Positions 11,929 to 39,605 of a stretch of DNA of 40,485 nucleotides are shown piece by piece. The stretch lies in assembly GCA_947643145.1 (NCBI GenBank), contig CANRVD010000023.1:1-40485 (forward strand), read 5' to 3'. The position numbers and the translations under genes are program-made. Under the pieces are notes generated by a model. That model was not told the origin of the DNA and searched no databases. It saw nothing but the letters and a program-made list of their open reading frames with translations. Source of the stretch: an uncultured bacterium (GTDB lineage Bacteria; Bacillota; Clostridia; Lachnospirales; Lachnospiraceae). The number at the start of each line of letters is the position of its first letter. The first letter of the stretch is position 1.

Positions 11929-12693
11929 ATGGCAAAAAAAAATAAAGATAGCAATGCAATGGTTCAGGAAGAAAGCAGTGGAAATAAAGTTGTTACAGCC
12001 TTGATTATTGTCATTATTATATTAATATGGCTTGCTGTATTTGCTTTTCTGATTAAACTGGATGTGGGAGGCATTGGAAGCAATGTATTATATCCTGTAC
12101 TAAAGGATATTCCTGTGGTAAATCAGGTTCTTCCGGAAGCGTCAGAAGAACAGCAGGCTTCCGAAGGAAATTATAAGTATAATACTTTAAAAGCTGCAAA
12201 TGCAAGAATCAAGGAACTGGAAAGACGTTTGGAGTCGGAAACTGGAACAACGACAGCGAATTCCGACTATATTGCAGAGCTTGAGGCGGAAGTCAGAAAG
12301 TTGCAGCGTTATAAAGATGATCAGGATGCTTTTGCAAAACGTGTGCAGGAATTTGATGAACAGGTAGTCTTTACAGAAAATGCTCCGGATATTACTGCTT
12401 ATAGACAGTATTACGAAGAGATTGCACCGGAGAATGCTGAAAAGATATATAAACAGGTATTGGATGAACTACAGTATAGTGAGCAGGCACAGATGCTCGC
12501 AACAACCTTTACCAATATGGATGCAGCGTCCGCTGCCCAGATTATCACCGATATGCCGGAGGATTTGGATTTAATCTGTGATATTCTCCGTAATATGAAG
12601 GAAAGCAATGCAGCAGCTATTTTACAGGAATTAGACAGTACCTTTGCTGCACAGCTTACCAAGAAAATTTCAGCAGTAAGGGATAATGATTAG
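11929..12693 (+). CDS. YlxF/MotE-like flagellar protein with MgtE-N-type domain
   Basis: This encodes a 254-aa protein. One membrane helix lies at about residues 22-43 (VVTALIIVIIILIWLAVFAF). A coiled coil follows at about 83-125 (ANARIKELERRLESE and ELEAEVRKLQRYKDD). The C-terminal domain, with AAQIITDMPEDLDLICDILR and NAAAILQEL, resembles the helical repeat of the MgtE N-terminal domain. This architecture and the position between fliJ and fliK match B. subtilis ylxF and the MotE/FlbB stator-stabilising proteins. A role in stator or export support is inferred. The stop codon's last base is the first base of the adjacent intergenic element. Confidence 0.8.
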   Translation: MAKKNKDSNAMVQEESSGNKVVTALIIVIIILIWLAVFAFLIKLDVGGIGSNVLYPVLKDIPVVNQVLPEASEEQQASEGNYKYNTLKAANARIKELERRLESETGTTTANSDYIAELEAEVRKLQRYKDDQDAFAKRVQEFDEQVVFTENAPDITAYRQYYEEIAPENAEKIYKQVLDELQYSEQAQMLATTFTNMDAASAAQIITDMPEDLDLICDILRNMKESNAAAILQELDSTFAAQLTKKISAVRDND

Positions 12694-12770
12694 TTGCTGT
12701 TCCATTCGTGACAGTAACAATGATTAGCTGTCTACAGAGAAATCTGTTGACATAGATGCGCATAAGCGCA
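12693..12770 (+). other. ylxF-fliK spacer: GTTAC-family stem-loop plus small hairpins
   Basis: GTTGCTGT (12693-12700) pairs with ACAGTAAC (12711-12718) through 8 pairs, one of them G.T. This is the shortest member of the intergenic family ending in AGTAAC. It starts on the last base of the ylxF stop codon. Two more hairpins follow. ACAGA-GAAA-TCTGT (12734-12747) has a GNRA-type loop, and TGCGC-ATAA-GCGCA is at 12757-12770. GACAG (12710-12714) could instead pair with CTGTC (12728-12732), which gives a competing fold. There is no T-run, so these are not typical terminators. Confidence 0.5.
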
Positions 12771-12795
12771 AAATATTATATAAGGAGGTGAAAAA

Positions 12796-14253
12796 ATGGC
12801 AAGAGTAGAAGCAATGAGCTTTAGTGCCGCTTCTATCCAAAATCTGGCCCTTTCCAAAGGAAAGGTTTCTATGGCAGCTGGAGGCGCAGATGCAAAGCAG
12901 TTTGAGCAGTTTTTAAAGAATGATAACTCACAGAATAAAGTAGAGTTTTCGAAAGAAACTGCTAAGAATGGGACTGCACAGGAAAAGCTGTATGAAGTAA
13001 AAAGCGATTCTGCAAAGCAGGAGAATCTGCAGGCAACCCAGACTACCAGAGGGGAAAGTACACCAGATACAAAAGAGCTTACAGCAGAGGATTTACAGGC
13101 AATAGAAGCAGCCGGAAAGGAGCTTCGCGATATCGTTAAGTCTACTTTGGATATTGACGATAAGACTCTGGACGCAGCAATGCAGAATATGGGAATAGTA
13201 CTGACAGATTTGTTAAACCCTGAAGTATTGCAGCAGTTTGTACTGTTATTAAACGGTGCAGAAGGAAAGGTTGATTTCCTTACCGATGAAGGATTGTTAC
13301 AGGATTTTACAACTTTAATGCAGGCGTTAGAAGATTTTGGGGAAGAAAACCAGAATATCTTATCCCTTATGGAGAAGTTAGATAATCCGGTTTCTTTGGA
13401 TGAATTTCTGATGCAGGAGGGTGTAACGCTTACAGATGAAGCTTCTGAAGGAATGGAAGAGGTTAAGGTAACCGTACAGGTGGCAAATCAGGCACAGTCT
13501 GCACCGGAGAATGTTGCAAAAGATGCCTTACATACCAGTGATGCTGATAAACCAGCAGTAGAAAATATGGTTGTTCAGAACACGGCAAAAGGTGTGGGAG
13601 AAGAAGCACAGGATTCTTTGTCAGAAGAGAAATCTGGGCAGAATGAAAATGAGTTGCTCTTTGCACAGAGGGAAGAAGTTTCAGGAGATGCAGCAAGAAA
13701 TACTGCTACACCGTTGTTTGCAGAAAATTTCAACAACTTTTTAGAAGACGGTGTGCGCTTTTTAAAGCCTGACTTTACGGTTGCACCAAGGATGCAGCAG
13801 ATGATTGATATTGTCAATCAGGTAAGCGAGACAATCCGTAGTTCTGTAAATGCTGATACTACATCTGTAGAGATGCAGTTGAATCCCGAAAGCCTTGGCA
13901 AAGTATTTCTATCGGTTGTATCAAAGGGCGGTACCATGACAGCTACCTTCCATGTGCAGACAGACGAAGCAAAGAATGCATTAGAAAGCCAGATTCTGAT
14001 TCTGCGTGAAAATTTAGAAGCCAAGAACTTAAAGGTAGAATCGGTAGAAGTCCATGTATCTGATTTCAGCTTTACACAAAGCAATCAGGCAGAGGGACAG
14101 AATCCAAATGAGTTTGAAAAGCAGGGTAAGAAAAAATTCCGTTATGATACGGAAGAGGCAGATGGTATGGAGGTTTCGGAAACAGAAAGTGCTGAAGAAG
14201 TCCGCAGGCAGGTAATGCGTGATACAGGCGGAAGTATTGACTTTACGGCATAA
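12796..14253 (+). CDS. fliK: Flagellar hook-length control protein FliK
   Basis: This encodes a 485-aa FliK, the secreted molecular ruler that measures the hook and flips FlhB specificity. The N-terminal two-thirds are low in conservation and rich in Ala, Glu, Gln and Ser, as expected. The C-terminal globular domain (about residues 345-430) has the diagnostic VEMQLNPESLGKVFLSVVSK segment and a stretch ending in NLKVESVEVHVSD. The ribosome site AAGGAGGTG is strong and lies 5 nt from the ATG. The tail after that domain is acidic. Order (ylxF, fliK, flgD) agrees with Firmicutes. Confidence 0.93.
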   Translation: MARVEAMSFSAASIQNLALSKGKVSMAAGGADAKQFEQFLKNDNSQNKVEFSKETAKNGTAQEKLYEVKSDSAKQENLQATQTTRGESTPDTKELTAEDLQAIEAAGKELRDIVKSTLDIDDKTLDAAMQNMGIVLTDLLNPEVLQQFVLLLNGAEGKVDFLTDEGLLQDFTTLMQALEDFGEENQNILSLMEKLDNPVSLDEFLMQEGVTLTDEASEGMEEVKVTVQVANQAQSAPENVAKDALHTSDADKPAVENMVVQNTAKGVGEEAQDSLSEEKSGQNENELLFAQREEVSGDAARNTATPLFAENFNNFLEDGVRFLKPDFTVAPRMQQMIDIVNQVSETIRSSVNADTTSVEMQLNPESLGKVFLSVVSKGGTMTATFHVQTDEAKNALESQILILRENLEAKNLKVESVEVHVSDFSFTQSNQAEGQNPNEFEKQGKKKFRYDTEEADGMEVSETESAEEVRRQVMRDTGGSIDFTA

Positions 14254-14290
14254 GCCTTACATACTTGTTTAAAGTTATATTATAAGAACA

Positions 14291-14366
14291 AATCGGTTTC
14301 CTATAACCGATTGACGGCACAAAACCATGTGCCTTTTATCAGAAATTGCTTTGCAAATTCTGATAA
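14291..14366 (+). other. fliK-flgD spacer: three tandem stem-loops
   Basis: Three hairpins follow one another. AATCGGTT (14291-14298) pairs with AACCGATT (14305-14312). GGCAC (14316-14320) pairs with GTGCC (14329-14333). TTATCAGAA (14336-14344) pairs with TTCTGATAA (14358-14366) and continues inward as TTGC-TTT-GCAA across one A.A mismatch, making 13 pairs. They sit between the fliK stop and the flgD ribosome site. The third is AT-rich and not followed by a real T-run, so it looks like an RNA stability or processing element more than a terminator. Confidence 0.55.
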
Positions 14367-14398
14367 GTTAAATTATTTAATTATGAAAGGAGGAGCTT

Positions 14399-15259
14399 AT
14401 GGCCGATTTAGTTGCACCTATTTTGGAAAACGATAAGGGTGAGAGTTATATAGCGATTTCTGAGACTTCTCAGGAGAAGCAGAGAATTCCAGGTTCTGAC
14501 CTTGGAAAAGAAGATTTTCTGATGCTTTTAGTAACACAGATGCAGTACCAGGATCCGTTGGAGCCAATGGATAATACGCAGTTTGTATCACAGCTTGCAC
14601 AGTTTAGCGAACTGGAGCAGATGTCTAATCTGAATACCACAGTAAATAACAATGTTGCCTATTCTCTGGTAGGAAAGGAAGTCTTAATCAGACAGACTAC
14701 ATCTACAGGAGAAGCAGTGGAATTTCAGGGAAGAGTGGACTATGTTACACTGAAAAACGGAGAAGCTTATGTTTCTGTGGAAGGTTCTGAATATTCCTAT
14801 GATGAAGTTGTTCGGGTCATTGATGATTTATATCTGATATCGCAATATATCCCATCAGTTGGGAAACAAAGCTTTGAATTTATCCATGAGGATCCACAGG
14901 ATATTAAGATTAAGGATATTTCCCTTGGTACAAATGGCTATGAAGCAACCAGCTTTGCTGTTGTTTTGGTTGACTCTGAGAATCAGACGACAGCGATTGA
15001 TCCGAAATATCTTACATATAAGGATAAGGTACTGACGATTGATAAGGCGGCATTAACATCAATGGATGCTGGAAAGTATCATATTGCATTTGTATTTAAT
15101 GATGCAAATAAGACAATGGATTACGACAGTGTTTCTTTGGAGATTAAGGGTATCCCTACTACTGAAAAGGAAGAAGATACGGATACCGACTCCGATTCTG
15201 ATACGGATACTGATAATTCAGGTGAAGGCGGAGAGGAAGGAAATACCGAAACAGTATAA
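14399..15259 (+). CDS. flgD: Flagellar hook-capping protein FlgD
   Basis: This encodes a 286-aa hook cap that guides FlgE polymerisation and is discarded later. The diagnostic N-terminal motif is present: LGKEDFLMLLVTQMQYQDPL followed by EPMDNTQFVSQLAQFSELEQ. The central part (about residues 85-200) looks like the Tudor/fibronectin-type FlgD domains. The last 35 residues are unusual: an acidic, repetitive Asp/Ser/Thr tail (TDTDSDSDTDTD) followed by a Gly/Glu-rich end. The ribosome site AAAGGAGG is strong. Confidence 0.95.
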   Translation: MADLVAPILENDKGESYIAISETSQEKQRIPGSDLGKEDFLMLLVTQMQYQDPLEPMDNTQFVSQLAQFSELEQMSNLNTTVNNNVAYSLVGKEVLIRQTTSTGEAVEFQGRVDYVTLKNGEAYVSVEGSEYSYDEVVRVIDDLYLISQYIPSVGKQSFEFIHEDPQDIKIKDISLGTNGYEATSFAVVLVDSENQTTAIDPKYLTYKDKVLTIDKAALTSMDAGKYHIAFVFNDANKTMDYDSVSLEIKGIPTTEKEEDTDTDSDSDTDTDNSGEGGEEGNTETV

Positions 15260-15283
15260 TTAAAATGGAAAGGTGGAATGGAT

Positions 15284-15673
15284 ATGCAACGATTACAGAA
15301 AAACTACACATCGATTGATTCGATGCGGGGCCAGTTGCTGCAGAATAATCCCCAAGCGGATAATTCCCAAAAACCAGAACTTTCTTTCCAGGATATACTG
15401 AGTTCCAAAAAGGAACAGGCAGTTGACAACCTTAAATTTTCCAAGCATGCCAATGAACGTATGGCAACGAGAAATATTAATCTGTCTGCGGAGCAGATAG
15501 AACGTTTGGAAAATGGAACAACGAAGGCACGGGAAAAAGGAATTCGAGAGTCTTTGATTATGGTAGATGATTTGGCATTTATTGTGAATGTCAAGAACAA
15601 TACCGTTATAACAGCAGTTGGTGATAAGACAGATTCTATTTTTACAAATATTGATGGAGCTGTCATTAGTTAA
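15284..15673 (+). CDS. TIGR02530-type flagellar operon protein
   Basis: This encodes a protein of about 129 aa. The C-terminal half has the pattern of the TIGR02530 flagellar operon family: FSKHANERMATRNINLSAEQ, then a KAREKGIRESLIMVDDLAF segment and IVNVKNNTVITA. Members lie between flgD and flgE in Firmicutes and their role is unknown. ATG 15284 is preferred, 7 nt after AGGTGG; the in-frame ATG 15278 is too close to that ribosome site. The N-terminal 50 residues are Gln/Asn/Ser-rich and look disordered. It may act as a chaperone or regulator of hook assembly, but this is a guess from position only. Confidence 0.82.
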   Translation: MQRLQKNYTSIDSMRGQLLQNNPQADNSQKPELSFQDILSSKKEQAVDNLKFSKHANERMATRNINLSAEQIERLENGTTKAREKGIRESLIMVDDLAFIVNVKNNTVITAVGDKTDSIFTNIDGAVIS

Positions 15674-15770
15674 GGAATGAGATTTGCCGGACCTCACAAG
15701 GAAGCAGATGGGAAGTTCGAATGACAGAGAAGTTCCCAGATTTCATTCCGCATTGAAGGAGGAAAAAACT

Positions 15771-17279
15771 ATGATGAGATCACTCTACTCTGGTGTGGCA
15801 GGATTAAAAACACATCAGACAAAGATGGATGTTATTGGTAACAACATTGCGAACACAAACACTGCAGGTTTTAAATCAAGCAGCGTAAACTTTTCAGATA
15901 CCTTTTATCAGACGATTTCCGGTGCATCCGGTGCAAATGCTGAGACAAGGACAGCCGGAACCAATGCAAAGCAGATTGGTCTTGGCTCTATGGTAGCTGC
16001 GATTCAGACAAATATTACAGATCAGGGTGGTCCTTCCACCACAAATCGCGCATTAGACGTAGCAATCAATGGAGACTCTTTCCTGATTGTACGTTCCGGT
16101 ACGGATACCTGCTTTACAAAATCAGGTGCTTTAAACGTAGATGAAGCTGGTAACCTTTATTGTACCACGAATGGAGCAACCGTGCAGGGATGGCTTGCAG
16201 ATGATGACGGAAATGTCATCAAGGATACTGTGCAGGATTTAAAGGTTATGAGTCCTGATAACCAGTATTATCCACCAGAGGCAACGGGCTCTGTGACTGT
16301 TTCCGGTAACCTTGACCCAAATGACCCAGACGTAAATATTGACACTGGTAAGGGTGAGATTGTAACAGTTAGTTTCTATGATAACGTTGGTGATTCTTAT
16401 ACCATTAAGCTGTCTGTAAAACAGGCTGGTACAGATGCAGCGAGTGCAGGAAAGTACACGGTTTCTGTAGTGGATGTCTTAAACTCTAGTTCCGAGTCCA
16501 TTTTTGTAAAAAAGACAGTCAGTGATCAGGGTGTTGTAACCTATGAAGCAACAGGGGCCACATTCAACTTTGGTTCTAAAACAGGCTGCACGCCTAAGGT
16601 TGATGAAAATACCGGTGAACTGACATGGGATACGCCGGCATCAGAGACACTTACATTTGGTACTTCTTCCGGTGAATTTGTTTCAGTTACACCGGAAAGA
16701 AAAAGAGAAGGCTATGAAGGAGCGATTAACTTCTCTATTACTAAGGATGCAAGAGGACTGGAAGGAGCAAATACGACCTTTCCACAGTATACCGCAGATA
16801 CAGAAACAGGCGGTGTGAATATCTTTTTTGACAGCCTGACACAGTATTCCCAAGGGGGAACTTCTAAGCTTTCCAGTGCAAAAGGTGATAAGAGCGGTTT
16901 GGATGCCGGTAATACAGCAGGAAAGATGAAGGGCATTTCCATTGACCAGGAAGGAAAGATTTGGGGTTCCTATGATAATGGTATGAAGAAGTGTCTTGCA
17001 CAGATGGCAGTTGCAACCTTTGCAAACCCATCCGGTTTGGAATCCGTAGGTACCAGTTTATTTGCAGCAACACTGAACTCTGGTGAGTTTGACGGCGTAG
17101 GACAGGAAATCAGCCTTGACGGTGGTTCCTTTACCGTTGGTGCATTAGAGATGTCAAATGTTGATTTGGCAAACGAATTTACCCAGATGATTACAACACA
17201 GCGTGGATTCCAGGCAAATTCAAGAATCATTACAACATCAGATTCTATGTTAGAAGAGCTTGTTAACCTGAAACGCTAA
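15771..17279 (+). CDS. flgE: Flagellar hook protein FlgE
   Basis: This encodes a 502-aa hook subunit. The N-terminal signature MMRSLYSGVAGLKTHQTKMD followed by VIGNNIANTNTAGFKSS is textbook, and the C-terminal DLANEFTQMITTQRGFQANS plus ITTSDSMLEELVNLKR closes the D0 coiled coil. The middle holds Thr/Gly/Asp-rich outer domains. I chose ATG 15771 because AAGGAGG lies directly upstream. A longer in-frame ATG at 15684 would add 29 residues unlike any FlgE. The gene is followed by a strong terminator, unusual inside this operon. Confidence 0.97.
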   Translation: MMRSLYSGVAGLKTHQTKMDVIGNNIANTNTAGFKSSSVNFSDTFYQTISGASGANAETRTAGTNAKQIGLGSMVAAIQTNITDQGGPSTTNRALDVAINGDSFLIVRSGTDTCFTKSGALNVDEAGNLYCTTNGATVQGWLADDDGNVIKDTVQDLKVMSPDNQYYPPEATGSVTVSGNLDPNDPDVNIDTGKGEIVTVSFYDNVGDSYTIKLSVKQAGTDAASAGKYTVSVVDVLNSSSESIFVKKTVSDQGVVTYEATGATFNFGSKTGCTPKVDENTGELTWDTPASETLTFGTSSGEFVSVTPERKREGYEGAINFSITKDARGLEGANTTFPQYTADTETGGVNIFFDSLTQYSQGGTSKLSSAKGDKSGLDAGNTAGKMKGISIDQEGKIWGSYDNGMKKCLAQMAVATFANPSGLESVGTSLFAATLNSGEFDGVGQEISLDGGSFTVGALEMSNVDLANEFTQMITTQRGFQANSRIITTSDSMLEELVNLKR

Positions 17280-17328
17280 TGTTTTTTAGTGTTTCTCGAC
17301 TGGGCATATAGAAATTGTGCAAAATGTT

Positions 17329-17363
17329 GGGGAGCGAGAACCAAAATCGCTCCCTCGTTTTTT
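17329..17363 (+). terminator. Rho-independent terminator after flgE
   Basis: GGGAGCGA (17330-17337) pairs perfectly with TCGCTCCC (17347-17354) around a 9-nt loop, and a T-run follows at 17358-17363. This is the clearest terminator in the flagellar region. It lies inside the operon, between hook and motor genes, so it may give partial termination and lower downstream transcription. Confidence 0.8.
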
Positions 17364-17427
17364 GGCTTGCAGGAAAGTTCATGATATATGCAAATGCGAA
17401 AAAAGTTGGCTTTGTGCTTTTCTTAGG

Positions 17428-17537
17428 TTTGATTTAGTTCCGTTTAGCATGGTTTTTTCATGCATTAGCGGAACTTCAAACCTTTTTGATTTAGTTCCGT
17501 TTAGCATGGTTTTTTCATGCATTAGCGGAACTTCAAA
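17428..17537 (+). repeat. Perfect tandem duplication of a 53-nt hairpin unit
   Basis: Two identical 53-nt copies lie at 17428-17480 and 17485-17537 (period 57). Each copy folds on itself in three steps. TTTGA pairs with TCAAA, AGTTCCG with CGGAACT, and GCATG with CATGC around a GTTTTTT loop. In copy 1 the AGTTCCG arm is 17436-17442 and its partner is 17469-17475. The translated repeat appears as a duplicated peptide in one frame, but that open frame is not a gene. Exact identity implies recent duplication or strong constraint. It lies between the post-flgE terminator and flbD. Confidence 0.9.
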
Positions 17538-17561
17538 TATTGGGGAAGTGGGTGAGAAAGT

Positions 17562-17762
17562 TTGATTGATGTTACGAAATTAAATGGAAAAGAAGTTACG
17601 ATAAACTGTGAATTAATCGAAATCGTCGAAGAAACGCCGGATACGGTCATTACTTTGACAACCGGAAAAAAAATAATTGTAAAAGAAAGTAGACAGATGA
17701 TAAAAAATCTAGTAAAATTATATAGGAAAGAATGTTATTCTGTGACAATAGCAGATAACTAA
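17562..17762 (+). CDS. flbD: FlbD-family flagellar protein
   Basis: This encodes a 66-aa FlbD/SwrD-type protein. The start is MIDVTKLNGKEVTINCELIE and the middle is VEETPDTVITLTTGKKIIVK, both typical of the family (family pattern IxxTRLNG... TPDTxITL... GKxxxVxE). The start codon is TTG 17562, about 5-10 nt after GGTGAGAAAG; no ATG fits. SwrD/FlbD increases motor power in B. subtilis, probably acting with the MotAB stator. Here it is directly before motA. The structured element that follows starts 3 nt after its stop. Confidence 0.9.
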   Translation: MIDVTKLNGKEVTINCELIEIVEETPDTVITLTTGKKIIVKESRQMIKNLVKLYRKECYSVTIADN

Positions 17763-17764
17763 AA

Positions 17765-17938
17765 TGTTATTGTTCACTCTGTGTCAAGTAACAAACGTAT
17801 TGCATATGCAATACGTCGTGTTTCCTGTATTTATGTACCCATTTTGCAAAAAACAGCAAAATGGCGTCATAAAACTCGTACTTTTGACATAAATTATGCC
17901 AAAAGTCTTCGGATTTGGCCAAAGTGTGAATAATAACA
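17765..17938 (+). other. Structured intergenic element flbD-motA (closing stem plus three hairpins)
   Basis: TGTTATTGTTCAC (17765-17777) pairs with GTGAATAATAACA (17926-17938): 13 pairs with one G.T. Inside are three hairpins. A perfect 22-nt palindrome spans 17795-17816. CCATTTTGC (17839-17847) pairs with GCAAAATGG (17856-17864). ACTTTTG (17880-17886) pairs with CAAAAGT (17900-17906). The whole would form a four-way, cloverleaf-like RNA. It begins 3 nt after the flbD stop and ends before the motA ribosome site. Its ends match the GTTACTRTTC/GAAYARTAAC family. Confidence 0.6.
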
Positions 17939-17965
17939 CTAAAATTACATAAGGTGGTGTAGATT

Positions 17966-18778
17966 GTGGATATTACAACATTAATCGGTTTGATTGGCGG
18001 TGCGGCGGTTATTTTCTTCGGTATCGTCAGTGGTGACGGCGGTATGTCGGCTTTAGGAAACTTCCCGGATGCTCCTTCTTTCATCATTACATTGGGTGGT
18101 GTTTTCATCTGTATGTTGATGCAGGCAAAGGGAATTCCGCAATATTTGGCGTGTCTTAAGTCAATTGGGCTTGCATTTAAGGTTCAGACGACACAGGAGG
18201 CACAGGTTATTTCAGATATTGTAAAGCTTTCCAATGTAGCACGTAAGGAAGGTCTGTTAGCTTTGGAAGAGATGGCAAATAATCTGGAAGATGAGTTCCT
18301 GAAAAAAGGTATTATGCTGATTGTCGATGGTACAGACCCCGAGCTGGTACGAAACATTATGGAGACAGAATTAGCATCTGTTGATACCCGTCATAATGAA
18401 AAGATTGGTTTTTGGGCGAACATGGCCGGAATGGGTCCTGCATGGGGTATGATTGGTACGCTGATTGGTCTTGTTAATATGTTGTATAACATGGAGGATA
18501 TGTCTAAGATTGGTCCAAACATGGCGGTAGCGCTCCTTACAACTCTTTATGGTTCTGTACTTGCAAACTGGATTTGTGTGCCTATTTCCTTTAAGTTAAG
18601 GATGTTTAATGACATGGAGATTACGATTAAGGAAATTATGGTGGAAGGCCTTTTATCCATTCAGGCCGGTGAGAACCCACGAGTAATTGAGGAGAAGTTA
18701 AAGTCTTTCCTGGCACCGGGAGACAGAGAAGGTGTTGGACAGGACCAGAATGGTGCTACTGAAGGTGGTGAAGCATAA
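17966..18778 (+). CDS. motA: Flagellar stator protein MotA
   Basis: This encodes a 270-aa proton- or sodium-channel subunit of the stator. Four membrane helices are visible: about residues 3-21, 35-50, the segment after NEKIGFWANMAGMGPAWGMI (about 148-175), and the segment around MAVALLTTLYGSVLANWICV. The two functional prolines are about Pro158 (in MGPAWG) and Pro206 (in CVPISF). The large cytoplasmic loop contains charged residues that meet FliG. Translation starts at GTG 17966, 7 nt after AAGGTGGTG. The stop overlaps motB by one base (TAATG), so the pair is coupled. Ion specificity cannot be told from sequence alone. Confidence 0.96.
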   Translation: MDITTLIGLIGGAAVIFFGIVSGDGGMSALGNFPDAPSFIITLGGVFICMLMQAKGIPQYLACLKSIGLAFKVQTTQEAQVISDIVKLSNVARKEGLLALEEMANNLEDEFLKKGIMLIVDGTDPELVRNIMETELASVDTRHNEKIGFWANMAGMGPAWGMIGTLIGLVNMLYNMEDMSKIGPNMAVALLTTLYGSVLANWICVPISFKLRMFNDMEITIKEIMVEGLLSIQAGENPRVIEEKLKSFLAPGDREGVGQDQNGATEGGEA

Positions 18779-19581
18779 TGGCAAAGAAAAAAGAGAAAGA
18801 GGAAATTAAAACAGATGGTTGGAAAGATACCTTTTCCGACTTAATGAATCTTCTGCTTTGCTTTTTCGTTTTACTTTTTTCTATGTCAAATATCAATGAG
18901 GTTAAATATGCGGAATTGGTTGCTTCTATGTCAAACAGCTTCAGCATATTTGATGGCGGGGCGCAGGCAATCGGTGAAGGAAAGCTGGTTTCCAGCGGTG
19001 CCAGCCAGTTAAATAATCTTGATGAATATTATTCTGATATGGGTAAGGCTGCGGAATCAGAATCGGAAGACGACCCAATGGTAGAATATGAAAAAGAAAA
19101 GCAGGAACAGAAAAGAAAAGAAGTGGAAGAAATGTACAGTGAGGTAGTGGAAAAGACAGAAGTAGCCCGCATGGAAGATTCTGTAGATGTTACAATAGAT
19201 GATAATTATAATTACGTGATGATATCGTTAAGCGGCGGCGTGTTGTTCCAGTCTGGAAGTGCTGAGATACAGTCTGGAGCAAAGCAGATTCTTAACAGGG
19301 TGGCAAGTATTTTGAAGTCCTATACGGATAGGCGCATTAAGATTGAAGGTCATACCGATAATGTTCCAATAAGTAATGCAGCATATAATAGTAATTTATG
19401 GCTTTCCACTGCAAGAGCAACAAAGGTGCTGGAGCATTTGGTGGAAAAGAACAACTTGAACCCAAAACTTATGGAAGCCTCAGGAAGAGGGGAACTTGAC
19501 CCGATTGCCAGCAATAATACGGCTGAAGGAAGGTCAAAGAACCGAAGAGTAGAAATTAAAATCTATAGTGATTCGGAGTAA
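18778..19581 (+). CDS. motB: Flagellar stator protein MotB
   Basis: This encodes a 267-aa stator subunit. A single membrane helix at about residues 22-40 (SDLMNLLLCFFVLLFSMSN) starts beside the ion-binding aspartate Asp21. A linker rich in Glu/Lys at about 90-130 is followed by the OmpA/MotB peptidoglycan-binding domain with IEGHTDNVPISN and the RSKNRRVEI end. ATG 18778 overlaps the motA stop. After it comes a 200-nt gap with several hairpins. Confidence 0.96.
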   Translation: MAKKKEKEEIKTDGWKDTFSDLMNLLLCFFVLLFSMSNINEVKYAELVASMSNSFSIFDGGAQAIGEGKLVSSGASQLNNLDEYYSDMGKAAESESEDDPMVEYEKEKQEQKRKEVEEMYSEVVEKTEVARMEDSVDVTIDDNYNYVMISLSGGVLFQSGSAEIQSGAKQILNRVASILKSYTDRRIKIEGHTDNVPISNAAYNSNLWLSTARATKVLEHLVEKNNLNPKLMEASGRGELDPIASNNTAEGRSKNRRVEIKIYSDSE

Positions 19582-24225: not shown

Positions 24226-24279
24226 GTACTATTTACAGCTGGTTTTATGCATGGGTTTAGGATAGCTGTAAATAGTAAC
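24226..24279 (+). other. fliQ-fliR stem-loop, 13-bp perfect stem, GTTAC-family ends
   Basis: ACTATTTACAGCT (24228-24240) pairs perfectly with AGCTGTAAATAGT (24264-24276) around a 23-nt loop. It opens with GTACTATTTA on the base after the fliQ stop and ends in AAATAGTAAC (24270-24279). Those ends are shared with the larger element at 39360-39605. There is no T-run, so it is not a standard terminator. Confidence 0.6.
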
Positions 24280-32456: not shown

Positions 32457-34568
32457 ATGGATGTTAGCCAGTATCTTGAGATTTTTATTGATGAAACAAA
32501 GGAACATTTACAGACTCTGAGCGACCAGATTATGATTTTGGAGCAGGAGCCGGAAAATATGGACGTTATCAATGAGATTTTCCGTGCTGCCCATTCCTTA
32601 AAGGGTATGGCTGGTACTATGGGGTTTAAGCGTATGCAGCGTCTGACCCATGACATGGAAAATGTATTTCAGGAAGTTCGTAGTGGGAATATGACTGTCC
32701 AGCCGGAATTGGTTGATGTATTGTTCCGTGGTTTGGATGCACTGGAATCTTATTTGGCAGAAATTTTAGAGACTGCCAATGAGGGAACAGAGGACAATGA
32801 AGAAATTATCAACACTTTGAATGCGATTGCTAAAAAAGCAAGTGGAAAAGAAGAGCCAGCGAAAGAAGAAGCAAAGGCTGAGAATGCAGCCGCTTCATCA
32901 TCGGGTAATGGCACAGAATCAAAATACCAGTCTATTCAGGTTTCTGATTTTGAGAAAAACACATTTGAGAAAGCGAAAAGTGAGAACCAAAATATATTTG
33001 GAATCACGGTATATCTGCAGGAGACCTGTATTCTGAAAGCAGCCAGGGCATTCTTGGTATTTAAGGCATTAGAAGAAATGGGCGAGGTTGTGAAATCAGT
33101 TCCTGACATACAGGATATTGAGGATGAAAAATTTGAATTTGATTTCAGTCTGGTTTATATTACTGCAGAAGAACTGGAAAAAGTAAAGTCTGCGATTGAG
33201 GCTGTTTCTGAAGTAAGAGGAGCAGTGATTGGACCATTTGATATGGGTGAACCTGCAGCAGAAGAAACAAAGGCAGATCCTGCAAAGGAGGAGGCTAAGC
33301 AGGCAGAGGCTGAACCAAAGCCGGCCGGTAATGCAGCAGCACAAAAAGCGGCAGAGCAGAAGAAAGAAACGCCTGCTGCAAAGAAAACACCTGCAAAGGC
33401 TGCAAAACCGACAGTTGGAAGAACTGTCCGTGTTGATATTGAAAAGTTAGATGTCTTAATGAATCTTGTCAGCGAGCTGATTATTGCGAAAAATGGTCTG
33501 GTTTCAACAAGTACTGCGGATGAGACAAGAAATGATTCCGGTTTTAATGAGCAGATTGAATATTTGGAGAGTGTTACTACAAACCTTCATGAGTCTGTTA
33601 TGAAGGTTCGAATGGTACCAATTGAGAGTGTTGTAAACCGTTTCCCGCGTATGATACGTGACCTGAGCAAAAAGCTTGGCAAAAAAATGGAATTACATAT
33701 GACTGGTGAAGAGACAGAGCTTGACCGTACGGTTATCGATGAGATTGGTGACCCATTACAGCATCTGCTTCGTAATTCCGCTGACCACGGACTGGAAGCA
33801 AACGATGAAAGAATTGCTCTTGGCAAAGACGAGGTTGGTCATATCTATCTTGATGCTTATCAGGATGGTAATAATGTAACAATTGAAGTACGTGATGACG
33901 GTGCCGGAATCAATGTAGAAAAGGTTAAAAACAAGGCGATTGAAAAGGGTACTATCACACCGGAGCAGGCAGAAGCAATGTCTGATAAGGAGATTATTGA
34001 CCTCCTGTTTAAGCCAAGTTTCTCAACAGCAGAGAAAATTACAGATGTTTCGGGACGTGGTGTAGGTCTTGATGTTGTTAAAACTAAGATTGAAGGTCTT
34101 GGTGGTAATATTGAGTGTAAGACAGAACTTGGAGAAGGAAGCAGTTTTATTATCCGTCTTCCGTTGACACTTGCTATTATTCAGGCATTAATGGTAGAGC
34201 TTGGCGCTGAGAAATATGCGATTCCTCTTGGAAGCATTCAGACAATTGAGGATGTGGCATTCTCAGAGGTAAAGCATGTTCAGACCAAAGAAGTTATTCA
34301 TCTGCGTGGTTCCGTTATTCCTTTAATCCGTTTGGATAAGATTTTAGAAGTTGAGCCGGGTGAATTTGAGCCGGAAAGCCTTACTGTTGTTATTGTTAAG
34401 AAGGGCGACAGACAGGCCGGGCTGGTTGTGGACAATCTGATTGGCCAGCAGGAAATCGTTATCAAACCAATTGGAGATTACATTCATTGCAGCAAGTTAA
34501 TCAGCGGTGCTACTATTCTTGGTAATGGTGAAATTGCACTGATTCTCGAAGCAAATACTTTAGTATAG
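32457..34568 (+). CDS. cheA: Chemotaxis sensor histidine kinase CheA
   Basis: This encodes a 703-aa CheA. The P1/Hpt domain holds phospho-acceptor His46 in AAHSLKGMAGTMGF. A P2-like CheY/CheB-binding domain is at about 168-260 (starting SKYQSIQVSDFEKNTFE). An Ala/Lys/Pro-rich linker follows to about 320. P3 dimerisation is VRVDIEKLDVLMNLVSELII. P4 kinase boxes are DPLQHLLRNSADHGLE (N), DDGAGI (G1) and GRGVGLDVV (G2). The P5 CheW-like domain is the C-terminal 130 residues. ATG 32457 is preferred; an in-frame upstream ATG at 32439 lies within cheB and has no ribosome site. Confidence 0.96.
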   Translation: MDVSQYLEIFIDETKEHLQTLSDQIMILEQEPENMDVINEIFRAAHSLKGMAGTMGFKRMQRLTHDMENVFQEVRSGNMTVQPELVDVLFRGLDALESYLAEILETANEGTEDNEEIINTLNAIAKKASGKEEPAKEEAKAENAAASSSGNGTESKYQSIQVSDFEKNTFEKAKSENQNIFGITVYLQETCILKAARAFLVFKALEEMGEVVKSVPDIQDIEDEKFEFDFSLVYITAEELEKVKSAIEAVSEVRGAVIGPFDMGEPAAEETKADPAKEEAKQAEAEPKPAGNAAAQKAAEQKKETPAAKKTPAKAAKPTVGRTVRVDIEKLDVLMNLVSELIIAKNGLVSTSTADETRNDSGFNEQIEYLESVTTNLHESVMKVRMVPIESVVNRFPRMIRDLSKKLGKKMELHMTGEETELDRTVIDEIGDPLQHLLRNSADHGLEANDERIALGKDEVGHIYLDAYQDGNNVTIEVRDDGAGINVEKVKNKAIEKGTITPEQAEAMSDKEIIDLLFKPSFSTAEKITDVSGRGVGLDVVKTKIEGLGGNIECKTELGEGSSFIIRLPLTLAIIQALMVELGAEKYAIPLGSIQTIEDVAFSEVKHVQTKEVIHLRGSVIPLIRLDKILEVEPGEFEPESLTVVIVKKGDRQAGLVVDNLIGQQEIVIKPIGDYIHCSKLISGATILGNGEIALILEANTLV

Positions 34569-34580
34569 GGGGGCTAGAAG

Positions 34581-35060
34581 ATGGATGATATAAACGATAT
34601 TCAGAATGTAGAAGTAGCAAGTGAGGGAAAACAGTATATTGTTGTCCGTCTCGGCAGTGAACAGTACGGTATTGATATTAAGTATATTGACAATATTGTG
34701 CGTATGACGAGAATTACCCGTATTCCAAGTGCCCAGAAATATTTTAAGGGTGTAATTAATCTTCGTGGTGAAATTAATCCGGTTATGAGCCTTCGTCTGA
34801 AGTTTGAATTGGAGCCGGATGAATATACAAATTCCACCAGGATTATTATTATTAAACTGGAATCACAGTCACCAATTGGGATTATTGTTGATGAAGTAAA
34901 AGAGGTTGTCACTTTGGACTCTGCTTCTATTGAAAAACCAACAGCGGATGCAGCAAATGATATTGGGATTAAATATCTGAGCGGTATTGGCAAACACGGT
35001 GACGGTTTAATCACATTGTTAAATATAGCTTCTGTCATAAATGAGAAAGAAAATATTTAA
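34581..35060 (+). CDS. cheW: Chemotaxis coupling protein CheW
   Basis: This encodes a 159-aa CheW that couples receptors to CheA. The SH3-like fold is recognisable from KQYIVVRLGSEQYGIDIKYI, then RIPSAQKYFKGVINLRGEIN and the C-terminal IVDEVKEVVTL. A ribosome site (GGGGGGCTAG region) precedes ATG 34581. The gene follows cheA by 12 nt and precedes cheC, an order typical of Firmicutes. Confidence 0.96.
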   Translation: MDDINDIQNVEVASEGKQYIVVRLGSEQYGIDIKYIDNIVRMTRITRIPSAQKYFKGVINLRGEINPVMSLRLKFELEPDEYTNSTRIIIIKLESQSPIGIIVDEVKEVVTLDSASIEKPTADAANDIGIKYLSGIGKHGDGLITLLNIASVINEKENI

Positions 35061-35080
35061 GACAGGGATAAGGAGTTGCT

Positions 35081-35698
35081 ATGCAGAAAAATGATGAAAG
35101 TATGAGCGACTTTGAATTTGATGTATTAACTGAAATAGGAAACATAGGTGCGGGCAATGCAACTACAGCATTGTCCCAACTTATTAATGCCAAGATTGAT
35201 ATGTATGTTCCACAGGTGCAGATGCTGTCATTTTCAGAACTGGCAGAAATTATTGGCGGAGCAGAAACGTTAGTTGCAGGCATTTTGTTGAACTTAACAG
35301 GTGATATTACAGGTTCAATGTTGTTTATTTTGGAAAGCAGAGATGCCAGAAGGATGGTGCATCAATTAATGGGCTATGTGAAAGACGGAGAAGAGCTTTT
35401 TTCTGATTTGGAAGTCTCTGCATTACAGGAAATAGGAAATATTATTTCAGGAGCCTATCTTTCCGCAATTTCTACTTTAACTAAATTAACGATTTCGGTA
35501 TCGATTCCGAGTTTGGCTTTTGACATGGCAGGCGCAATACTAAGTGTTCCTGCAATTGAGTTTGGGAAGCTGGGCGATAAAGCGTTGCTGATTGAATCCA
35601 AGTTTAAGGATATGGATGTAGATATCAGTGGTTACTTCATATTGATTCCGACGATGGAATCGTATGGACGCATATTAGAATCGTTAGGGTTAAGGTGA
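35081..35698 (+). CDS. cheC: CheY-P phosphatase CheC
   Basis: This encodes a 205-aa CheC. It has both phosphatase motifs: Asp14-x3-Glu18-x2-Asn21 in FDVLTEIGNIGAGNAT, and Ser113-x3-Glu117-x2-Asn120 in VSALQEIGNIISGAYL. CheC removes phosphate from CheY-P and partners CheD for adaptation. It overlaps no gene, but its stop lies 6 nt before cheD. Together with FliY the window codes two CheY-P phosphatases. Confidence 0.95.
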   Translation: MQKNDESMSDFEFDVLTEIGNIGAGNATTALSQLINAKIDMYVPQVQMLSFSELAEIIGGAETLVAGILLNLTGDITGSMLFILESRDARRMVHQLMGYVKDGEELFSDLEVSALQEIGNIISGAYLSAISTLTKLTISVSIPSLAFDMAGAILSVPAIEFGKLGDKALLIESKFKDMDVDISGYFILIPTMESYGRILESLGLR

Positions 35699-35704
35699 TT
35701 GGGA

Positions 35705-36190
35705 ATGTCTAAGATGATAAAAGTAGGTATGGCTGATTTGAATATTTGTCATGCGCCGGACGCAATTACAACACTGGGGCTTGGTTCCTGTGTTGGTGTT
35801 GCGTTGTATGACAAAACTACTAAACTTGCCGGGCTGGTACATGTCATGTTACCGGATAGTACCCAGGTTAGGCAAAATCAGAACCGGGCAAAGTTTGCAG
35901 ATACAGGAATCGATTATTTAATAGAAATGATGGTTGCAAAGGGAGCTGGCAGAAGCCGCCTGACAGCGAAAATTGCAGGAGGCGCCCAGATGTTTGCTTT
36001 TAATGGAAACAGTGATATGCTCCGTGTAGGAGAAAGAAATGTAGAATCGGTGAAAAGAAAACTAAATCAACTGAGAATTCCTATTTTGGCAGCGGATACC
36101 GGCCTGAATTTTGGACGGACGGTTGAGTTTTATCCAGAAACCGGTGATTTTGTAATTAAGGCAGTAGGAAAACCAGTAAAAACAATTTAA
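35705..36190 (+). CDS. cheD: Chemoreceptor glutamine deamidase CheD
   Basis: This encodes a protein of about 161 aa. The catalytic Cys29 (GLGSCVGVALYD) and His46 (GLVHVMLPDS) are present, with AKIAGGAQMF at about residue 90. CheD deamidates chemoreceptors and is a target of CheC. ATG 35705 is chosen, about 8 nt after AAGGTG; TTG 35699 is too close to that site. It directly follows cheC, as in B. subtilis and Thermotoga. Confidence 0.94.
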   Translation: MSKMIKVGMADLNICHAPDAITTLGLGSCVGVALYDKTTKLAGLVHVMLPDSTQVRQNQNRAKFADTGIDYLIEMMVAKGAGRSRLTAKIAGGAQMFAFNGNSDMLRVGERNVESVKRKLNQLRIPILAADTGLNFGRTVEFYPETGDFVIKAVGKPVKTI

Positions 36191-36221
36191 GTGGTTAAAA
36201 AATGATGAAGAGAGGGTTCTT

Positions 36222-36527
36222 ATGAAACTGGAATTTATTCCGAAATTTATAACATTATTAGCTGGCTCTGTAGTATGTATTATTACCATTATAAATGATA
36301 TGGAAGTTGTCTATAGTCTTGAATTGTTATTGGCAACTTTGGTAATATTTTATATTATCGGACTCATTGCAAAAAAAATTATCCAAAAGGTTTTGGAAGG
36401 CAATATGTTTGTGAAGAACACAGATGCTACACTGCAGGATATTGCACTTCCGGAACAGGATATCCCGGTAATGGGTGCTGGTGTGAATGGTGAAGGAGAA
36501 TCTGTTTCTGGTGCAGCCGGAGAATAA
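36222..36527 (+). CDS. Small membrane protein of unknown function
   Basis: This encodes a 101-aa protein that I do not recognise. It has two membrane helices, at about residues 6-24 (IPKFITLLAGSVVCIITIIN) and 29-51 (VVYSLELLLATLVIFYIIGL). The C-terminal 45 residues are polar and Gly/Glu-rich and probably disordered. The predicted ribosome site is AGAGAGGG. It lies between cheD and sigD on the same strand, so a link with motility or the membrane step of assembly is only inferred. Confidence 0.75.
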   Translation: MKLEFIPKFITLLAGSVVCIITIINDMEVVYSLELLLATLVIFYIIGLIAKKIIQKVLEGNMFVKNTDATLQDIALPEQDIPVMGAGVNGEGESVSGAAGE

Positions 36528-36556
36528 TCAGATGCGGTATTATAGAACCAGAGCAG

Positions 36557-36602
36557 GGTTAACGGGTTCATTGTAAGTGATAATTCGAAAGGAATGTTAA
36601 CC
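36557..36602 (+). promoter_or_regulatory. Inverted repeat around the sigD ribosome site
   Basis: GGTTAAC (36557-36563) is perfectly complementary to GTTAACC (36596-36602). The sigD Shine-Dalgarno GAAAGGA sits in the 32-nt loop and the second arm ends one base before the ATG. A competing hairpin, GAACC (36546-36550) with GGTTC (36565-36569), would leave the first arm in its loop. Together they could gate sigD translation. Confidence 0.4.
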
Positions 36603-36603
36603 A

Positions 36604-37365
36604 ATGGATGATAAGCAAAAAGAAGAATTGTGGACGCAATATCAAAAGACGAGAAATCCTGCAATCAGGGAACAGTTGATTATTGAGTATGCTGGTCTGG
36701 TTAAGATTGTAGCAGGAAGGCTTGGTATGTATTTAGGCTATACAATTGAATATGATGATTTAGTAGGTTATGGCATATTTGGGCTTATTGATGCTATTGA
36801 TAAATTCGAATTAACAAAGGGCGTTAAGTTTGAAACGTATGCCAGTCTCCGAATCCGTGGTTCTATTTTAGACCAGATTCGTAAAATGGACTGGATTCCA
36901 AGAACACTGCGCCAAAAGCAGAAAAAACTGGAAAATGCTATTCGGGAATTAGAGGTAAAATATGGAAGGCAGGCTTCAAACGAGGAGCTGGCGGGGGAAC
37001 TGGGAATTTCAGTAGAGGAACTGGAGGAACTTGTTAACCAGACGCAGATTGCTAATTTGGTTTCCTTAGATGAATATTTAGAGCAGGGAAGTGAAGTAAG
37101 GGTTGAATTTGGCAATACGCCACGCTTTGAGCAGCCGGAAAAGATTATGGAGCGGCAGGAATTAAAGAAGATTCTTGCACAAGCTATTGATTCCCTGACG
37201 GAAAATGAGCAAAAAGTAATTGCATTTTATTATTTTGAGGAGTTAACTTTAAAAGAGATTAGTAAAATATTAGAAGTTTCCGAATCAAGAGTTTCACAGC
37301 TTCATACAAAGGCTCTTCGTAAAATGAAAGAACGTATGGGAAGTGATATCTCCTTTTTTGGATAA
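36604..37365 (+). CDS. sigD: RNA polymerase sigma factor for flagellar late genes (sigma-28/SigD/FliA)
   Basis: This encodes a 253-aa sigma-28 of full length. Region 2 has YDDLVGYGIFGLIDAIDKFE and the -10-reading SLRIRGSILDQIRKMDWIPR. Region 3 reads RQASNEELAGELGISVEELE. Region 4 is LTLKEISKILEVSESRVSQL then HTKALRKMKERMG. It directs late flagellar genes such as flagellin and motor-related regulons in this clade. No clear sigma-28 promoter was seen in the window. In B. subtilis the gene is near the end of the fla/che operon, as here. Confidence 0.96.
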   Translation: MDDKQKEELWTQYQKTRNPAIREQLIIEYAGLVKIVAGRLGMYLGYTIEYDDLVGYGIFGLIDAIDKFELTKGVKFETYASLRIRGSILDQIRKMDWIPRTLRQKQKKLENAIRELEVKYGRQASNEELAGELGISVEELEELVNQTQIANLVSLDEYLEQGSEVRVEFGNTPRFEQPEKIMERQELKKILAQAIDSLTENEQKVIAFYYFEELTLKEISKILEVSESRVSQLHTKALRKMKERMGSDISFFG

Positions 37366-37388
37366 ATGAATAAGACTGGAGGAGCGCA

Positions 37389-38996
37389 ATGAAGAGAAAT
37401 GCCTTTTTTCAATTAGTTCAAAAAAGCGATGGCACATATTTGAAATCCTATCCAGCAGTAGACGGTGGAGAACCGCTTAAACCGGACGATATCATTTCTT
37501 ATCTGAACAGTAAGAAGTATGGTGATATAACAGTAGAAGAAGTTAAGAAATTTATTGAAGACGCAGGAAAAAATAGGAATGCAGAGCTGCGGATTACGGT
37601 TAAAACTACACTGCCGGAAAATGAAACTATTGTTGTCACGATAGACCCAAGACGTTTGTATGCAAAAGTAAGAATGTATCCAAATTCCAGTCATGGCTCA
37701 AGAATTACGGTTGCTGATATCAAGAACTTACTGGAACAGCATGGCATCCGTCATGGAATGATAGAAAAGAATCTTGAAATTATGCATAAAGCCCGTCTTT
37801 ATTGTACGGATATTCTGGTAGCAAAGGCAACAATGCCCATTCATGGAAAAGATGCTGTTATTACATATCATTTTGATGTGGATAAGACAAATAAACCTGC
37901 AGTGAGTGAAAATGGACAGGTAGATTTCCATAAACTGGATATGATTGAACCGGTATCAGACGGACAGCTTTTAGCAACACTGGAACCGGCTGATTTTGGT
38001 ACTCCGGGAACGGATGTTATGGGGGAAGAAATTAAGCCAAGGAAGGTTAATGTTAAGGTGTTGAAACATGGAAAACATATTCATTTGTCAGAGGATGGAT
38101 TAAATATGTATTCTGATGTTTCCGGTAATGTTACTTGTGTAGATGATACGGTCTTTGTATCGGACTGCTATCAGGTGCCTGCAGATGTAGGACCTTCCAC
38201 GGGTGATATTGACTATGATGGAAGTGTAAATGTCAAGGGAAATGTTTTAACAGGCTATACGGTAAAAGCAACAGGGGATATCTATGTTACCGGTGCTGTT
38301 GAGGGTGCGACTTTAATTGCCGGCGGTAAGATTGTTCTGAACCGAGGAATTCAGGGAATGGGAAAGGCTGTTATGGAAGCTGGAGGCGATGTTATTTCTA
38401 ACTTTATTGAAAGTGCAAAGGTAACAGCCGGAGGCAAGATTATTACAGATGCAATTATGCATAGCGATGCCATAGCAAATGAGTCCATAGAGGTGAATGG
38501 TAAAAGAGGTATGATTGCCGGTGGAAGTGTCCGTTCTGCCCAGAAGATTGAGACAAAGATAGCAGGCTCATCTATGGGAACACAGACAGAATTAGAGGTT
38601 GGTATTGACCCTAAGGTAATCGACAGATATCATGAAATTGAAAAATTGATGGAAGATTTCGATGATGAGAAAGAAACAATCAACCAGACTCTTGAAATTT
38701 TAAAGAAGCGTTTTAAAGCTGTTGGCTCTTTGGAGCCTGAAAAACTGATTATGCTTAAGGAAAATAAGGCTCGTTTGGCATTTATTGACGGTGAAATGGA
38801 AAAACTAACAGAAGAATACGATGAGCTGGAAGGAGTTTTGGAAAGTGCTTCCGGCCGTGGTAAAATTGTAGTATACGATATTGCTTATTCAGGTGTTAAG
38901 CTTACCATTTCTAATATTACGAACTATCTGCATAGTGAAGTACATCACAGTACCTTTGTACGTGATGGTGCAGATATACGTGTTCGCGGCATATAA
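37389..38996 (+). CDS. FapA/DUF342 domain protein
   Basis: This encodes a 535-aa protein of the DUF342/FapA family. The N-terminal 180 residues are mixed. The centre (about 185-400) has the beta-helix repeats typical of polymer-forming FapA proteins (DIDYDGSVNVKGNVLTGYTV and GAVEGATLIAGGKIVLNRGI). A coiled coil follows at about 410-490. Members often lie beside sigD in flagellar loci and some regulate motility or cell polarity. The ribosome site GGAGG is good. Role here is inferred from position. Confidence 0.85.
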   Translation: MKRNAFFQLVQKSDGTYLKSYPAVDGGEPLKPDDIISYLNSKKYGDITVEEVKKFIEDAGKNRNAELRITVKTTLPENETIVVTIDPRRLYAKVRMYPNSSHGSRITVADIKNLLEQHGIRHGMIEKNLEIMHKARLYCTDILVAKATMPIHGKDAVITYHFDVDKTNKPAVSENGQVDFHKLDMIEPVSDGQLLATLEPADFGTPGTDVMGEEIKPRKVNVKVLKHGKHIHLSEDGLNMYSDVSGNVTCVDDTVFVSDCYQVPADVGPSTGDIDYDGSVNVKGNVLTGYTVKATGDIYVTGAVEGATLIAGGKIVLNRGIQGMGKAVMEAGGDVISNFIESAKVTAGGKIITDAIMHSDAIANESIEVNGKRGMIAGGSVRSAQKIETKIAGSSMGTQTELEVGIDPKVIDRYHEIEKLMEDFDDEKETINQTLEILKKRFKAVGSLEPEKLIMLKENKARLAFIDGEMEKLTEEYDELEGVLESASGRGKIVVYDIAYSGVKLTISNITNYLHSEVHHSTFVRDGADIRVRGI

Positions 38997-39055
38997 TATG
39001 TTATTATTTACGGCTGCGCCGCTCATAGCAGCTTCTTTAGAAAGGGGGAAGGAAA

Positions 39056-39358
39056 ATGTCAATTACATTTGATATTGTGACAATGCCACCAAAATCCCAA
39101 GAGGTTTCCCAAATTCAGACGAATGAAATTAATCGTCTTCAGCAGGAAAACCAGCAAATGGCTGCACAGTTTGAAACAGAGATAAAAAAGAATTCTGAGC
39201 AGACAATCCGTAGAAATAAGGCGGAAAACGAAGAGCTAAAAAATGAAGAGAGAAGACAGCAGCAAAGAAGGAAGAAAAAGAATGCGCAGGGCAAATCCGG
39301 TGATTCCAATGAGGATGAGAAGGAAGAAAGAGTTCCTCATTTTGATATGCGGGTATAA
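39056..39358 (+). CDS. Small charged coiled-coil protein of unknown function
   Basis: This encodes a 100-aa protein that I do not recognise. The start ATG 39056 follows AAAGGGGGAAGG. Residues 18-75 are rich in Gln, Glu, Lys and Arg and form a probable coiled coil (QTNEINRLQQENQQMAAQFE and the RRQQQRRKKK basic patch). The acidic stretch EDEKEE precedes a short end PHFDMRV. No signal or membrane helix is present. It is between the FapA gene and the membrane coiled-coil gene. Confidence 0.72.
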   Translation: MSITFDIVTMPPKSQEVSQIQTNEINRLQQENQQMAAQFETEIKKNSEQTIRRNKAENEELKNEERRQQQRRKKKNAQGKSGDSNEDEKEERVPHFDMRV

Positions 39359-39359
39359 A

Positions 39360-39605
39360 GTACTATTCAAGGCTGATTACAGAAAAGAGTCAGACTCGTC
39401 GTGTTTGCACGTAAGAGAATGATTATTTTCTGTAACCAGCGTGTAGGCTGTTCTAAACGATATGAAGTAAAACATAAGCTGCTGGTTTTGCAACGGTGCC
39501 AAGCGTCACAGGCGTTTGTTTAGCACAGAACGAAGCGGAACAGAGACCTGACAGCGAAGCTGGATGGTTTTATATAAGTTGCATAGAAATGCCATGAATA
39601 GTAAC
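39360..39605 (+). other. Large structured intergenic element with GTTAC-family ends
   Basis: This 246-nt element starts 2 nt after a stop codon. TACTATTCA (39361-39369) and TGAATAGTA (39595-39603) are perfect inverted ends. GCTGATTACAGAAAA (39372-39386) pairs with TTTTCTGTAACCAGC (39426-39440) except one A.C. Inside that arm are GAGT-CAG-ACTC (39387-39397) and CGTG-TTTG-CACG (39400-39411). Further hairpins are GTGC/GCAC enclosing CAAGCG/CGTTTG (39496-39526) and CAGC-GAA-GCTG (39552-39562). No open frame or promoter was seen. Its size and terminal inverted repeats resemble a MITE-like unit or a structured RNA. Confidence 0.6.

Follow-up and report, generated by a model that had tools for sequence, protein, structure and literature searches.

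A stretch of DNA of 40,485 nucleotides from an uncultured bacterium of the Lachnospiraceae (GenBank assembly GCA_947643145.1, contig CANRVD010000023.1), called the window below, carries five short elements with common inverted ends that probably belong to a group of transposons with RNA-like cores. The group resembles the miniature inverted-repeat transposable elements (MITEs) of other bacteria. In our judgment the elements are very probably non-autonomous transposons that reside in Lachnospiraceae-like bacteria and are moved in trans, with 8-bp staggered cuts. An earlier note on the window had already described a dispersed palindromic family with conserved ends and proposed that it might be MITE-like, a view that is upheld by the multiple copies, the inverted ends, an 8-bp flanking repeat, empty sites and the lack of coding capacity. 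Beyond that note, we recognize two structured classes of long element, termed A and B, one of which is related to an Rfam RNA, and a 26-28-bp form that stands alone between its own repeats. Three aspects appear to be new as far as we have seen: an orphan Rfam RNA and its relative, class A, have flanking repeats; a further structured class, B, exists; and hairpins as small as 24-28 bp lie between repeats of their own.

The contig of the window is part of a 3.32-Mb draft genome (G000; G numbers denote genomes and L numbers individual loci) and carries a flagellar and chemotaxis gene cluster, as read from its open reading frames (ORFs). Assemblies of Lachnospiraceae type are numerous among the closest named relatives of its FliP protein, and the family of genomes sampled below is, in our reading, the Lachnospiraceae. 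All five elements, including one previously listed as probable, were found at the places reported for them, and four of the coordinate pairs stand; the second element proves to be one base shorter on each side. Specifically, a bare hairpin of 27 bp, GTTACCGGGCACGAAAGGAACAGTAAC, at 4124-4150 is flanked by AATTTTTA (4116-4123) and GATTTTTA (4151-4158), which agree at 7/8 positions, and one of 26 bp at 12693-12718 lies between perfect 8-bp copies of AATGATTA (12685-12692 and 12719-12726). The first base of the latter element completes the TAG stop of an ORF at 11929-12693, and TTAG is read again in the downstream repeat copy. A class B element of 172 bp occupies 17766-17937 on the reverse strand between perfect copies of ACTAAAAT (17758-17765 and 17938-17945). 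A 54-bp element at 24226-24279, between fliQ- and fliR-like genes, has a weak flanking repeat (4/8) and scores at chance level with the class B model (14.5 bits); from its sequence likeness we read it as a putative shortened form of class A, comparable to the 56-bp forms in L009 and L016. Neither this element nor the two hairpins is assigned a strand. Finally, a class A element of 246 bp lies on the forward strand at 39360-39605, flanked by GGTATAAA (39352-39359) and GCTAGAAA (39606-39613). Its 6/8 flank match depends on the choice of end, since the score falls to 3/8 when the left end is set one base earlier, as was done by the automatic search. A scan of the window for paired ends whose flanks agree at 7/8 positions or better returned exactly the elements at 4124, 12693 and 17766, compared with an average of 0.1 in first-order Markov controls.

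The shared end is strongly enriched in this genome. The motif GTTACTRTTC occurs 82 + 85 times on the two strands of G000, versus 14 + 12 times for the same pattern read backwards (167 versus 26). Strong enrichment is also seen in seven of 24 other congeners (G001, G006, G007, G008, G019, G020 and G024; 63-314 versus 14-40), with a weaker lean in G005 (43 versus 23) and G022 (35 versus 19) and counts near background in the remainder. In 16 genomes that represent the order's other families, counts stay at background or close to it, with 12 versus 6 as the greatest excess. In other genera, GTWACWRTTCAS exceeds its control by 145 to 2 (G145), 133 to 1 (G101) and 299 to 14 (G292). The tips, which exceed the reversed control as terminal inverted repeats, have the conserved form GTTAC/GTAAC...RTTCAC. 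Two tip types, GTTAC..TTCAC and GTAAC..TTCAG, coexist in A and B elements (for example, G000 versus G006, G008 and G145). Tip positions 3 and 12 mostly change jointly, with exceptions, as if two enzyme specificities were involved.

Evidence for insertion comes from the sequences that flank the paired ends. In 823,712 bases of G000, the window included, 208 loose end pairs were collected (overlapping alternatives counted), and 19 of these have flanks that agree at 6/8 positions or better, where reshuffled flanks predict 2.35. Repeats of other lengths (3-7 and 9-14) reach 75% identity in just 0-7 of the 208 pairs, versus 19 at length 8. Pairs of ends also recur together elsewhere: among 20 pairs from two other genera, chosen from a list of ends while their flanks were still unseen, 15 have flanks that match at 7/8 positions or better, versus 0/380 for mismatched flanks. 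For class B, 81 of the 88 matches to a covariance model were scored, leaving out seven antisense or fragment matches; a repeat of at least 7/8 is present in 63 and an exact repeat of length 8 in 50, versus 16/6,476 mismatched flanks. The matches from the same genus (36/46) are biased, because their loci were chosen after the ends were known, and the 27/35 from other genera comprise all loci L277-L303 plus six end-picked copies, found regardless of flanks; six rows are common to this set and to the 20 end-picked pairs. For class A, 30 loci were fetched and 25 had resolvable ends, of which nine reach 7/8 and 12 reach 6/8 (controls 1/600 and 8/600). Like MITEs, the elements have a target-site duplication of fixed length, 8 bp, are present in multiple copies and have no coding capacity, with lengths from 24 to about 250 bp.

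Empty sites agree with this picture. L030 lacks the element found at 17766-17937 in the window, as does L029, where other sequence stands at the corresponding site. The gap between fliQ and fliR measures 19, 28 and 19 nt in L029-L031 and 73 nt in the window. Another related genome (L032) has an element of its own in the fliQ-fliR gap that matches the site of 24226-24279, with ends GCTGCTATTCACAG / CTGTGAATAGTAGC. Shortened derivatives retain both tips and the repeat, as in L142 (45 bp), L151 (53 bp), L345 (66 bp), L346 (106 bp) and L132 (114 bp). Two loci, L137 in G008 and L240 in G000, apparently hold one class B insertion at a common site, with similar flanks but without a clear repeat, and vertical inheritance may therefore account for some copies.

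Two classes of core, together with shortened forms derived from them, account for the varied internal content that had been remarked upon in the window. Class B elements are mostly 142-172 bp long (copies in other genera are read mostly as about 142 nt), and at least 12 of 28 congeners have matches to a 152-bp copy from G000, with about 30 candidates scored in each genome. A full-length alignment of 24 copies, hand-picked among repeat-bearing copies (34 non-redundant of 49), yields a consensus fold in which the tips form a closing stem around three inner hairpins. In this alignment 97.2% of the cells are paired, a value reached by none of 500 shuffles and compared with 31-52% in slid controls. 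Cells in which both partners have changed number 49, versus 15.0 in shuffles, and 11 pairs have changed on both sides, versus 7.4, a value equalled by 6/500 shuffles. One copy has a folding energy of -72 kcal/mol (shuffles, -41.5). The covariance model built for class B finds the window element at 17766-17937, which was outside the training set, with 100.2 bits, an E value of 1.9e-23 and exact ends. It misses 39360-39605, the class A model finds 39360-39605 and misses 17766-17937, and the two cores are therefore treated as separate. Under strict filters the class B model detects matches in 17 of the family's 397 sampled genomes and in 16 of their 334 genera, and most copies in other genera have the motifs CGCGAGG...CCCGAG and GCGC...TGTGCA in common. 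Rfam scans of class B loci gave chance-like matches only, none over the gathering score. A 242-bp class B copy in G006 (L178/L273, contig C18) with an 8/8 repeat has extra sequence in its core, apparently hairpins, and a 297-bp chimera in G024 (L155, contig C17, 1501-1797, minus strand) joins the left part of an A element to the right part of a B element, with a flank score of 3/8.

Class A elements are about 195 bp long or more. A long hairpin that bears the apical module TCGTCGTG..TTGCACGTAAGAG or variants of it is common to the element at 39360-39605 and to copies of 195 bp from G000 and G101, and its stem is highly divergent in sequence despite the conserved apical module. In nine sequences, 17 of the 25 pairs of this hairpin covary, and a model of this first hairpin has matches in 91 of the 397 genomes and 83 of the 334 genera. 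The class A model scores the window element at 87.9 bits by construction, the element being in the training set. Class A is related to the Clostridiales-1 RNA (RF01699). Eight RF01699 matches, all below the cut-off, were found in seven of 15 class A loci, the best with 40.9 bits (E 1.1e-5). In the window, 39368-39490 scores 16 bits (E 0.41), which is at chance level. We considered class A as a member of RF01699 and rejected this in favor of a relative, since the scores lie below the 48-bit gathering cut-off.

Clostridiales-1 resembles class A in its long hairpin, CUUG-type apical loop and second structured domain. It likewise occurs in several copies per genome, in the same bacterial family, with frequent 7-9-bp flanking repeats and a right-end hairpin, whereas its tips, GATGCCAGGGTCAAAAGG / CCTTTTGACCCCAACATC, differ from those of the present elements. 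RF01699 was found in 215 of the 397 genomes of the family (176 above the cut-off) and in none of 14 control genomes. There were 32 strong loci; two lacked flanks, and 25 of the 30 that were read have a right-end hairpin that ends in an ACATC-like motif. Exact repeats of 7-9 bp flank 15 of the 25 loci with a resolved end, versus 5/600 mismatched flanks. Two closed genomes contain 32 and 29 ends of the RF01699 type (at most one mismatch), which pair up over lengths of about 200 bp and of 76-91 bp. An end pair of 1.4 kb in the closed genome G361 resolved into two separate hairpins of about 36 bp. Fifteen 5-kb segments surrounding unpaired ends of the RF01699 type yielded further forms, 57-205 bp in length, with no pair that carries a gene. 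Mobility is unmentioned in the titles and abstract openings of the papers found to name Clostridiales-1 or RF01699, most subscription papers lying outside this search.

The smallest members of the group are the bare hairpins, which measure 26-28 bp in G000. A 27-mer type, GTTACTGNTCACGNAGTGAACAGTAAC, occurs with up to three mismatches in seven of 13 genomes in species-specific versions, with 0 matches to the reversed pattern. Many of these copies are the right end of a class B element and others are free-standing. In class B of G000 and its relatives, this right end is a hairpin of about 27 bp with a copy of the left tip in its inner arm, and we read the inner GTTACTG as a probable second left end. 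Palindromes of 24-30 bp number 22 in G000, where the reversed motif gives 3, and eight of the 22 lie between repeats that agree at 7/8 positions or better, versus 0/462 in the control.

The fold favors one strand. At variable pairs in class B, G-U exceeds A-C by 169 to 41 in a model-fitted alignment of 79 distinct rows and by 40 to 14 in a plain MAFFT alignment of 24, and in class A the counts are 15 to 2 (eight rows). A fold acting in duplex DNA would favor no strand, and selection thus seems to act on a single sense of the element, in the form of RNA or single-stranded DNA. Among 49 judgeable insertions of the 81 loci, 21 lie along both neighboring genes and eight against both; the others lie between divergent genes (12) or convergent genes (2), have one neighbor unknown (5) or are inside an ORF (1). 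These counts rest on simple ORF calls and carry no significance test.

These features would be explained if a DDE-type recombinase, encoded elsewhere and without these tips flanking its gene, bound the tips and, cutting the target with an 8-bp stagger, joined them to it. Because the end hairpin has an inner tip, this recombinase would be able to mobilise the hairpin alone, and the core would be retained because an RNA or single-stranded DNA form aids mobility or lets operons tolerate the insertion. A bolder proposal, which we consider unlikely, gives the folded RNA a role within the transposition machinery itself, with the host-encoded recombinase recognising the core (of the A, B or Clostridiales-1 type) in addition to the DNA tips. 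If this were true, the family would harbor a widespread RNA-dependent transposition system, in which Clostridiales-1 is one of the RNAs and no substrate is smaller than the 24-28-bp hairpin.

The strand-specific wobble bias, the covariation of the cores and the excess of sense over antisense insertions between co-directional genes (21 versus 8) would also be expected if a folded transcript were reverse-transcribed and then inserted, such that the fold is the mobile form. However, the 8-bp repeat is fixed in length and the inverted tips are conserved, and both tips are kept in shortened forms, as expected of cut-and-join DNA transposition; we regard RNA-mediated copying as quite improbable. The strong covariation would also fit non-mobile cis-regulatory RNAs or RNA genes of the host, which is the Rfam view of Clostridiales-1. 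In the part of the 2010 paper available to us (PMC2864571), this RNA is listed as a probable biological RNA that is unlikely to be cis-regulatory. Yet RF01699 is itself flanked by repeats (15/25 versus 5/600), the insertion sites of the elements are unrelated, and the distribution between congeners is patchy, with class B in at least 12 of 28, so that we give a host function of this kind very little credence.

The other suggestion of the earlier note, that the family might be REP-like (repetitive extragenic palindromic), fits poorly. REP elements and their paired form, REPINs, are moved by the RAYT transposase, a Y1 HUH enzyme, and form high-copy palindromes of 20-40 bp, which the multi-copy, imperfect bare hairpins of 24-30 bp resemble. 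The present hairpins differ in having 8-bp flanking repeats, which HUH transposition is not known to leave. Their feet also read GTTAC/GTAAC rather than the GTAG/CGTC tags of REP hairpins (as described in the consulted sections of PMC3733652), and an origin of this type seems to us extremely doubtful. The closer likeness is to bacterial MITEs such as bcr1, QMITE2, RUP, NEMIS and EFAR, which are likewise small and non-coding, with inverted ends and flanking repeats, and are often adjacent to genes. According to the portions of two papers that were accessible (PMC3733652, PMC10969869), MITEs measure 70-300 bp and are moved by transposases that recognise their ends, their transcripts fold, and the QMITE2 repeats are 7-9 bp. 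The present elements are unlike these in being as short as 24-28 bp, in having a core fold that is conserved across genera, and in that no parent was found in our searches. A text search of the literature with 12-base tips returned nothing related, judged by titles; human microbiomes are reported, in the part of PMC8040213 available, to contain 250 palindromic candidate RNAs.

Several observations weigh against the interpretation of these elements as transposons moved in trans. Movement itself was not observed, a repeat of at least 7/8 is absent from 18 of the 81 class B matches and from 16 of the 25 class A copies, and RNA and single-stranded DNA folds are indistinguishable here. Only 2 of 34 bare palindromes of 24-30 bp in G101 have flanks of at least 7/8 (control 3/1,122), and the reversed motif gives 11 palindromes in that genome; many of the G101 palindromes are either the termini of longer copies or chance occurrences. 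A helper enzyme or gene-carrying parent also failed to appear in the parts searched. No tip-bounded element of 236-5000 bp with at least 7/8 was present in 1,161,350 bases of G101, and no pair of 320-4000 bp with at least 6/8 in the G000 sample, where one pair of 2783 bp reached 5/8. The IS256 transposase was not found in the drafts G000, G007, G019, G020, G022 and G043, nor that of IS66 in G000, G001, G004, G020, G022, G024, G043, G101, G130, G153, G305 and G342. The end search covered 73 transposase loci (19/19 IS256, 30/62 DDE_Tnp_1 and 24 IS66). No end pair of at least 7/8 surrounds the 49 IS256 and DDE_Tnp_1 loci, and likewise none surrounds the 24 IS66 loci, four of which have single exact ends. 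These searches leave aside the ISL3, IS6, IS1595, ISLre2, IS1 and ISAs1 families and RAYTs.

IS256 transposase is present in G001, G004, G006, G008 and G024, and IS66 transposase in G006, G007, G008, G019, G145, G292 and G436. Descent of the elements from IS256 or IS66 was considered and rejected, since the corresponding transposase was not found in several draft genomes rich in the elements. The single 6/8 end pair near an IS256 or DDE_Tnp_1 locus (L208) has three end mismatches. An IS4-like transposase in G101, a candidate from a phmmer comparison of transposase-locus ORFs with sampled ORFs, was set aside because its boundaries read as different.

If the elements are transposons, then RF01699, an orphan RNA in 215 of the 397 sampled genomes of this gut family, gains a testable identity as one of them. 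Repeat-flanked elements of only 24-28 bp would also make a minimal transposase substrate, and its helper, experimentally approachable. More generally, other intergenic sequences annotated as 'RNA' or 'regulatory hairpin' in these bacteria may be insertions.

Phages are a possible route of the elements between genomes. Class B or RF01699 elements occur in unannotated faecal phage records, including MT836813.1 and MT837121.1. Three such records match the class B copy L281, one of them across 29 bases only, and eighteen match the RF01699 copy L439, six across at least 80%. No faecal phage record matches the class B copy L162, and neither L281 nor L439 has a plasmid match. A core pattern gave no match to viral contigs, a result made weak by the odd gap in the pattern.

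A 132-bp element in G292 (L344, C1:119661-119792) has GTAAC-type tips and a perfect 8-bp repeat. Its core could not be placed in class A or B by eye, and it is possibly a third class or a strong derivative. In the window, a short ORF at 17317-17565, downstream of a flgE-like gene, encodes the peptide FDLVPFSMVFSCISGTSN twice in near-tandem and is perhaps non-coding repeat DNA.

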